Shown piece after piece: positions 43,477 to 45,808 of a stretch of DNA of 45,808 nucleotides. This stretch comes from Desulfotomaculaceae bacterium (GTDB lineage Bacteria; Bacillota; Desulfotomaculia; Desulfotomaculales; Pelotomaculaceae): the NCBI GenBank assembly GCA_028696455.1, contig JAQVGZ010000011.1, forward strand, positions 1 to 45,808. The letters are read 5' to 3'. Under the pieces are notes generated by a model, which did not search any database, was not told the DNA's origin, and saw only the letters and a program-made list of their open reading frames with translations. Numbering within the stretch: the stretch's first letter is position 1; every line of letters begins with the position of its first letter. The position numbers and the translations under genes were made by a program.

Positions 43477-44823
43477 TTAAATTTTTATAATTTTGTCTTT
43501 CCCCCTTTGTACATTCTTTGTTGCATTGCGCGTGTCCAGAATAAGCCTGGCATGATCGGCAATCCATTGATAGTCAAAACAAGAATGATCGGTGATAATT
43601 AAAATACAATCTGCCCTGGCTAGTTCTTCTTCGTTAAGATCAATGGATTTAATGCAGCTTCCGTGCTCTCCTGCAACTTGAAATTCAGGTACATAAGGGT
43701 CATGGTAGACAACCTCAGCCTGGTTTTTTTGAAGATTATTGATAATTTTTAACGCCGGAGTTTCTCTTACATCGTTGATGTCTTTTTTATAAGCAACACC
43801 AAGGACAAGGATCCTTGATCCATTCAAACATTTCTTGTGTTTATTAAGGATGGAAATTAATTTTGTAACCACGTATTCTGACACCTTTATGTTCATTTCA
43901 ACGGCAAGGTCAATAAAACGGGTGCAAAAATCATAATCTTTGGCCTTCCAGGCCAGGTAAACAGGATCAACAGGTATACAGTGGCCACCCACCCCAGGTC
44001 CGGGGTAGAAGGTTTGTATACCGAACGGCTTGGTAGCTGCCGCATCAACAATTTCCCATATGTCAAGGCTCATCCTGTCACAGAGAATCATAAATTCATT
44101 AACCAGCGCGATGTTTACCGAACGATAAGTGTTTTCAAAAATTTTGGTCATTTCTGCGGTAGCCGGGGAAGAAACCGGTATCACCTGCTGTAGACTCTGG
44201 CGATAGAAAGCGCAGGCGACTTCCCGGCAAAGGGGAGTGACACCACCAACTATTTTTGAGATATCCCTGGTTGTAAAATTTTTGTTGCCAGGGTCAACCC
44301 TTTCCGGGGAAAAAGCCAAAAAGAAGTCCCTCCCTGCAGTGAGGCCGGTTGACTCCAAAATAGGCAGGACAACTTCCTGGGTTGTTCCCGGGAAAGTGGT
44401 ACTTTCCAGGCAAATAAGCTGACCTTTTTTAATTTTTTCTGCAATTTGTTTAGTTGCCGACGTAACAAAGGAAAGATCGGGCTGATTCATCGATATTAAC
44501 GGTGTCGGAACACAAATAATAATAATATCTGCTTCCTTAAGTAGATCAAAACGATGAACGGCGCTTAAGTTGCCAGCTTCCACAAGGGCTCGCAGCATAT
44601 CTTCAGGAACATCCCGAATATAGCTCTGCCCGTTGTTTATTTGCCCAACCTTTATAAGATCCTGATCTACTCCTACGACTGTAAAACCAATTCTAGCCTG
44701 TTCAACAGCCAGAGGTAGTCCAACGTAGCCAAGGCCGATTACAGCTACTCTTGCCAAACGGCTGTATATCTTTTCCGTAAGTATTTTTGCGAATTTTTCC
44801 CCTTGCTCTTCTAATACTTTCAT
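43477..44823 (-). CDS. UDP-N-acetyl-hexosamine 6-dehydrogenase (WbpA/WecC/TviB type)
   Basis: The 448-residue protein belongs to the UDP-sugar 6-dehydrogenase superfamily. It has VAVIGLGYVGLPLAVEQARI, CVPTPLISMNQPDLSFV, LESTTFPGTTQEVV, FSPERVDPGNKNF and the catalytic cysteine in GPGVGGHCIPVDPVYL. The SPERVDPG and GGHCIPVDP blocks mark the N-acetylhexosamine branch (WbpA, TviB, WecC) rather than the UDP-glucose branch. It should make a UDP-HexNAc uronic acid, for direct use or for the Gfo/Idh plus DegT route encoded at 18.8-22.8 kb. ATG at 44823 has AGGATGG about 10 bases upstream. It is divergent from the selenoprotein gene across 252 bases. Confidence 0.9.
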   Translation of the reverse strand: MKVLEEQGEKFAKILTEKIYSRLARVAVIGLGYVGLPLAVEQARIGFTVVGVDQDLIKVGQINNGQSYIRDVPEDMLRALVEAGNLSAVHRFDLLKEADIIIICVPTPLISMNQPDLSFVTSATKQIAEKIKKGQLICLESTTFPGTTQEVVLPILESTGLTAGRDFFLAFSPERVDPGNKNFTTRDISKIVGGVTPLCREVACAFYRQSLQQVIPVSSPATAEMTKIFENTYRSVNIALVNEFMILCDRMSLDIWEIVDAAATKPFGIQTFYPGPGVGGHCIPVDPVYLAWKAKDYDFCTRFIDLAVEMNIKVSEYVVTKLISILNKHKKCLNGSRILVLGVAYKKDINDVRETPALKIINNLQKNQAEVVYHDPYVPEFQVAGEHGSCIKSIDLNEEELARADCILIITDHSCFDYQWIADHARLILDTRNATKNVQRGKDKIIKI

Positions 44824-45012: not shown

Positions 45013-45075
45013 ATCCTGTTGGTATATTTTTTTGCGCATTACCTAAAACTATAAGAAAATTAAGGGGGATATGTA

Positions 45076-45309
45076 ATGGCACAAAACATCACACTTTACA
45101 CAACACCCACTTGACCGCATTGCGACCACGTGAAGGAGTATCTTTCACAAAAGGGTGTACAGTACAAGGAAATCAACGTGGCTGGCGATGCACGCGCCCG
45201 AGACGACATGATCAAGAAAACCGGGCGCATGGCCGTACCAACAATAACCGCTGGTGACCAGGTCGTTGTGGGTTTTAACCGGAGTGAACTGGATAAGCTG
45301 CTCTCCTAG
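45076..45309 (+). CDS. Glutaredoxin-like selenoprotein (UXX-star type), UGA decoded as selenocysteine
   Basis: An ATG at 45076 with AGGGGG about 8 bases upstream opens a frame of 77 codons if the UGA at 45112-45114 is read as selenocysteine. The product starts AQNITLYTTPT-U-PHCDHV, so U takes the place of the first cysteine of a CxxC redox motif. It continues with LSQKGVQYKEINVAG, the cis-proline loop MAVPTI and VVVGFNRSELDKLL, all typical of a glutaredoxin fold. Coding character continues unbroken after the UGA and ends at TAG (45307-45309). Sequences of this kind are known as glutaredoxin-like UXX-star selenoproteins in anaerobes. A SECIS-like hairpin follows the UGA. It should act as a cytoplasmic thiol/selenol oxidoreductase. 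The sel genes needed for decoding are not in the window. Confidence 0.9.
45130..45148 (+). promoter_or_regulatory. Bacterial SECIS-like hairpin for selenocysteine insertion
   Basis: Starting 15 bases after the UGA, GTGAAGG pairs with CTTTCAC (seven pairs including one G-U) around the loop AGTAT. The loop has a G at its second position, 23 bases after the UGA, which fits the usual bacterial SECIS layout of a short stem at this distance with a G early in the apical loop. It lies inside the coding sequence, as bacterial SECIS elements must. Confidence 0.75.
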
Positions 45310-45808
45310 TCCAATTGTAAGATCTGCTCCATAATTACCCGGAAGACAGGCGCAGCTGTCTGCCCGCCACTTACTCCGTCTCCGATCATTACAGTAACAA
45401 TATAGCGAGGGTTGGACCGGGGAGCATACCCGGTAAACCAGGCGTTAACCGTTTTTTTATTTAAACCAACCTGTGCCGAACCGGTTTTGCCGGCGCTACC
45501 GAAAACCGGTACAAAGGCCTTACTGCCGGCGCCCTCATCAATTACCGACTCCATGAGTTTGCGCAACTCAGCCGCAGTATCCGTTTGAATGACCACCCGG
45601 CCAGGGTCTACAAAAAATTCCCTGGCCACTTCTCCGTTTCTTTTGCGCACTTCTTTCACGAGGCGCGGTTCCCGAAAAATACCATCGTTAACAATTGCGT
45701 TTACCATTGAGGTCACCTGCACAGGAGTGGCCAGCACAGGTCCCTGTCCAACACTGCTGTTTACCAGATTATTAGGCGCTGCGATCAATGTAAGGTCCTG
45801 GCGCCGAT
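45306..45808 (-). CDS. Penicillin-binding protein transpeptidase domain, C-terminal part (N-terminus beyond the window)
   Basis: The frame is open from the right edge to the TAG at 45306-45308, giving about 166 residues. It holds the end of a class B-type transpeptidase domain: NLVNSSVGQGPVLATPVQVTSMVNAI spans the SxGQG and following helix, and the KTG triad is in GSAGKTGSAQVGLNKK. AWFTGYAP and YIVTVMIGDG are strands typical of PBP2/FtsI/SpoVD-like proteins. The SxxK and SxN motifs lie off the window. It cross-links peptidoglycan outside the membrane. The stop overlaps the selenoprotein stop by four bases in convergent orientation. Which PBP class it is cannot be decided from this part. Confidence 0.88.
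   Translation of the reverse strand, partial: RRQDLTLIAAPNNLVNSSVGQGPVLATPVQVTSMVNAIVNDGIFREPRLVKEVRKRNGEVAREFFVDPGRVVIQTDTAAELRKLMESVIDEGAGSKAFVPVFGSAGKTGSAQVGLNKKTVNAWFTGYAPRSNPRYIVTVMIGDGVSGGQTAAPVFRVIMEQILQLD

Follow-up and report, generated by a model that had tools for sequence, protein, structure and literature searches.

Does the in-frame TGA at positions 45112-45114 of this contig end a reading frame, or is it decoded as an amino acid of a longer protein, and what would that protein do? The window, that is, the whole stretch of 45,808 nucleotides analyzed, corresponds to contig 37 in full, from a draft genome of 2.69 Mb that is 96% complete. Under translation table 11 no ORF spans 45076-45309, and mechanical calling yields only a 59-amino-acid ORF starting at the GTG at 45130. 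The first-pass annotation had proposed a selenocysteine-containing glutaredoxin that standard gene calling misses, and every check of this proposal that could be run was passed. The active-site residue of a 77-residue glutaredoxin is very probably selenocysteine, decoded from the in-frame UGA. A single-gene selenoprotein, in which SelB and Sec-tRNA decode the UGA at 45112 as Sec13 of a UPHC glutaredoxin, is regarded as almost certain. The frame, the family, the conserved UGA, the SECIS fit, the decoding genes and the predicted fold were each read from sequence and comparison. A gene broken by table 11 ORF calling is thereby restored.

Gene structure and neighborhood

Provided that the TGA counts as a residue, 45076-45309 on the forward strand is one glutaredoxin gene of 77 residues plus stop, running from the ATG at 45076 to the TAG at 45307-45309. 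Its translation is MAQNITLYTTPTUPHCDHVKEYLSQKGVQYKEINVAGDARARDDMIKKTGRMAVPTITAGDQVVVGFNRSELDKLLS, with selenocysteine as residue 13 and YTTPT-U-PHC as the active site. The predicted resolving Cys16 of the UxxC motif (codon TGC, 45121-45123, forward strand) is invariant in alignment A2. The same alignment bears out the cis-proline loop named in the first-pass annotation, MAVPTI at 45229-45246 (forward strand), a feature of the thioredoxin/glutaredoxin fold in which V54 and P55 are invariant. The ribosome binding site reported earlier is likewise present as AAGGGGG at 45062-45068 (forward strand), 7 nt 5' of the ATG, and orthologues carry GGAGG-type sites at the same place. The consensus promoter claimed alongside it is not supported: the search for sigma-70-like promoters returned 2 sites, against 1.5 +/- 1.4 in shuffled sequences, which is chance level, and the forward site is some 180 nt 5' of the ATG. 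Neither the gene nor its leader matched any Rfam family.

Both flanking genes lie on the reverse strand and outside the unit. The divergent neighbor (43477-44823) encodes a UDP-sugar dehydrogenase (Pfam PF03721, PF00984 and PF03720), beyond which, upstream, a LytR-CpsA-Psr protein is encoded. The convergent neighbor (45306-45808) encodes a penicillin-binding protein (PBP) transpeptidase (PF00905); this gene is cut by the contig end and has a 4-bp overlap with the glutaredoxin stop. The earlier description of a cell-envelope locus thus stands as far as envelope genes adjoin the glutaredoxin gene; a functional link does not follow, both flanking genes being on the opposite strand.

A glutaredoxin specific to cell-envelope assembly, as the neighbors suggest, would be in keeping with the presence of a PBP gene downstream in 21 of the 23 loci compared and of polysaccharide genes upstream in about half of them. 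In those 21 loci the PBP belongs to the same cluster and lies nearby, on the downstream side of the glutaredoxin gene, and this synteny is old. Against such a role, the convergent PBP gene and the divergent sugar dehydrogenase gene have no common transcript with the glutaredoxin gene, other genes stand in between in several relatives, and inspection by eye revealed no evident signal peptide. The selenoglutaredoxin gene stands alone, and since gene orientation gives no operon, an envelope function is not inferred. An envelope-specific function is accordingly rejected as very improbable, on the ground that the flanking genes share no transcript with the glutaredoxin gene.

Decoding of the UGA codon

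Matches to the selenoglutaredoxin were found in 48 of the 60 genomes examined. The host is related to Pelotomaculum; of the named relatives among the loci, Pelotomaculum sp. PtaB.Bin104 is nearest, with 87% identity in this protein. Codon 13 is TGA in 29 of 30 distinct close orthologues and TGT (Cys) in the remaining one (L032). More distant homologues (L057-L061) have Cys aligned with the UGA position, the outcome of an alignment check proposed in the first-pass annotation. Downstream of the TGA, Ka/Ks was 0.058 and 0.063 against two relatives of the same genus; Ks against more distant relatives was saturated and was left out. These ratios show strong purifying selection on the frame that follows the TGA. 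The same data bear on a pseudogene or a sequencing error, that is, a Cys glutaredoxin with a nonsense change from TGC or TGT to TGA. The TGA is one base away from either Cys codon and one orthologue does carry TGT, but the same TGA recurs family- and order-wide in 29 of 30 orthologues, the frame 3' of it is under purifying selection, and the genome holds the selenocysteine machinery. A TGA common to the orthologues, followed by a frame of low Ka/Ks, refutes the pseudogene reading, whose probability is negligible.

The TGT sequence is nested among TGA sequences and grouped with one of them (support 0.855); it keeps the SECIS-like hairpin sequence, and its genome (G010) retains selB. Because it is nested in the TGA set, with hairpin and selB kept, it looks like a Sec-to-Cys replacement in these sequence comparisons, and it offers a tidy case for studies of such replacements.

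A start downstream of the TGA, at the GTG at 45130, corresponds to the 59-amino-acid ORF of mechanical calling; its truncated product would have neither strand 1 nor the UPHC motif, and this start can be dismissed as having next to no probability, given that the first 12 codons are conserved glutaredoxin sequence in orthologues, that the ribosome binding site precedes the ATG at 45076, and that the GTG is merely the codon at which the SECIS stem begins.

The bacterial SECIS element lies at 45130-45148 on the forward strand, with an 8-bp stem (GUGAAGGA/UCUUUCAC), a GUA loop and a loop start 23 nt after the UGA. It satisfies all constraints of the published bacterial SECIS model and folds at -10.2 kcal/mol within a 39-nt element (z -2.2). 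Longer folded stretches (49-61 nt) were unremarkable (z -0.3 to -1.1), the signal being confined to the 39-nt element. When the peptide was recoded synonymously 3,000 times, 21 of the variants fit the SECIS model and 11 folded as well as the native sequence. The model is fully satisfied in 19 of 31 orthologue rows, and 12 of 31 miss at least one limit, as judged by a plain 40-nt fold; in most of the failing rows the loop is still at 23 nt and the stem is weaker. Synonymous choice is frozen at the hairpin (Val19 GTG in 30/30, Glu21 GAG in 29/29 and Leu23 CTT in 27/30), with a mean excess synonymous conservation of 0.255 over codons 18-27 versus 0.055 elsewhere (permutation p 0.002). Base pairing holds in 93.8% of the stem's cells, compared with 40-74% for slid versions. 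No compensatory changes were found in the stem because it hardly varies, and covariation is uninformative. The SECIS-like hairpin of the first-pass annotation is thus upheld by the model constraints, by the recodings (21/3,000) and by synonymous conservation.

The host genome was searched family by family. As the first-pass annotation had advised checking, selA, selB, selC and selD are all present: tRNA-Sec scores 66.7 bits, above the cut-off, with anticodon tca (UCA); selA (600 bits) directly adjoins one of two selB genes (365 and 349 bits); and selD (399 bits) has its own frame with one in-frame TGA. Across the 60 genomes examined, host included, selB was found in 59, and none of the 46 good-quality genomes lacks it.

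The two selB genes (L084:6898-8820, minus strand; L085:3781-5703, plus strand) are full-length and 67% identical, one beside selA and the other beside a formate-dehydrogenase-like frame; most relatives have one selB, and three occur in G002, a genome of the same genus, where one of them approximates the second host selB in score and frame length. The selD match (L018, G000:C40:5303-6229, minus strand) has its in-frame TGA as expected for a Sec-containing SelD. A second glutaredoxin-like frame with an in-frame TGA occurs in the same genome (L052, G000:C159:51522-51740, minus strand; FTSKTUPHCKTAKEFL); it is 38% identical to the selenoglutaredoxin and lies near a formate-dehydrogenase-like gene.

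Proposed mechanism and electron source

The hairpin 23 nt downstream of the UGA would recruit SelB with Sec-tRNA (anticodon UCA), which would decode the UGA at 45112 as Sec13. The product is expected to adopt the fold of a small glutaredoxin of the dithiol type, its active site being UPHC. By analogy with the glutaredoxin cGrx1 of Clostridium oremlandii, the attacking group would be the selenolate of Sec13, acting on disulfides or sulfenic acids of the targets, and the mixed selenosulfide would be resolved by Cys16.

Searches of the 96% complete draft for gamma-glutamylcysteine synthesis genes gave no match to TIGR01435, PF04262 or PF04107, and thioredoxin reductase is present in the host genome. 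Given this lack of a gamma-glutamylcysteine ligase match, electrons appear more likely to come from thioredoxin reductase or another thiol than from home-made glutathione. The wider proposal, that in hosts free of glutathione synthesis a thioredoxin-reductase-type or other thiol system reduces the selenoglutaredoxin, which would serve a conserved target, is tentative, with chances put somewhat below even. Of some interest is the reduction of glutaredoxin-type selenoproteins in bacteria apparently devoid of glutathione synthesis.

Family assignment and comparison with known systems

Family scores were computed with Cys substituted for the TGA. The best match was TIGR02196 (GlrX_YruB, NCBIfam), with 96.7 bits against a curated cut-off of 88.55 (E 8.6e-28). 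This and the Pfam Glutaredoxin match (E 4.2e-19) far exceed chance expectation and agree with the earlier statement that the frames before and after the UGA form one glutaredoxin. Its designation as a glutaredoxin-like UXX protein holds narrowly, NF041212 (Uxx_star, Uxx-star family glutaredoxin-like (seleno)protein) scoring 68.9 bits against a cut-off of 66. UXX-star families 1, 2 and 3 (NF041114, NF041211 and NF047338) stayed below their cut-offs at 37.5/72, 47.4/100 and 45.4/97 bits, as did the classical glutathione-dependent glutaredoxin 3 (TIGR02181 equivalog; 62.5 vs 90 bits). TIGR02196 also includes Cys forms; a Sec form with UxxT is given for it in a review (PMC9312934), whereas the present protein has UxxC.

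Sec-containing glutaredoxins were reported from Geobacter, Alkaliphilus and Moorella in the bacterial selenoprotein surveys of 2006 (PMC1794560). The present gene is a new orthologue of an already catalogued kind of selenoprotein (NF041212, TIGR02196) and not a new kind, and a well-conserved, family-wide orthologue set is added to that family. The suggestion of an uncharacterized redox function in the first-pass annotation carries less weight, the family being catalogued and a close relative, cGrx1, having been characterized biochemically and structurally.

This closest characterized relative is cGrx1 of Clostridium (Alkaliphilus) oremlandii (PDB 7c10, 7c12 and 7c13), which occurs naturally as a selenoprotein and has the motif U(or C)PXC (PMC7642778). 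It is proposed as reductant of a Sec-type MsrA (PMC7642778, PMC4479559); the single MsrA-domain match of the present host, by contrast, reads Cys at the active site and lies, with no in-frame stop, in a 328-amino-acid frame that by eye also holds an MsrB-like part. Together with the Pfam match, the AF2 model of the selenoglutaredoxin (pLDDT 89.7) and its structure match indicate a thioredoxin fold, with UxxC where helix 1 begins and with a cis-Pro loop, as in glutaredoxins; the best PDB match of the model is cGrx1 itself (7c10, TM 0.90, rmsd 1.0 A). About half of the residues differ between the two proteins, and the positions of U13 and C16, the UPHC motif and the fold are common to both (47% identity in the structural alignment).
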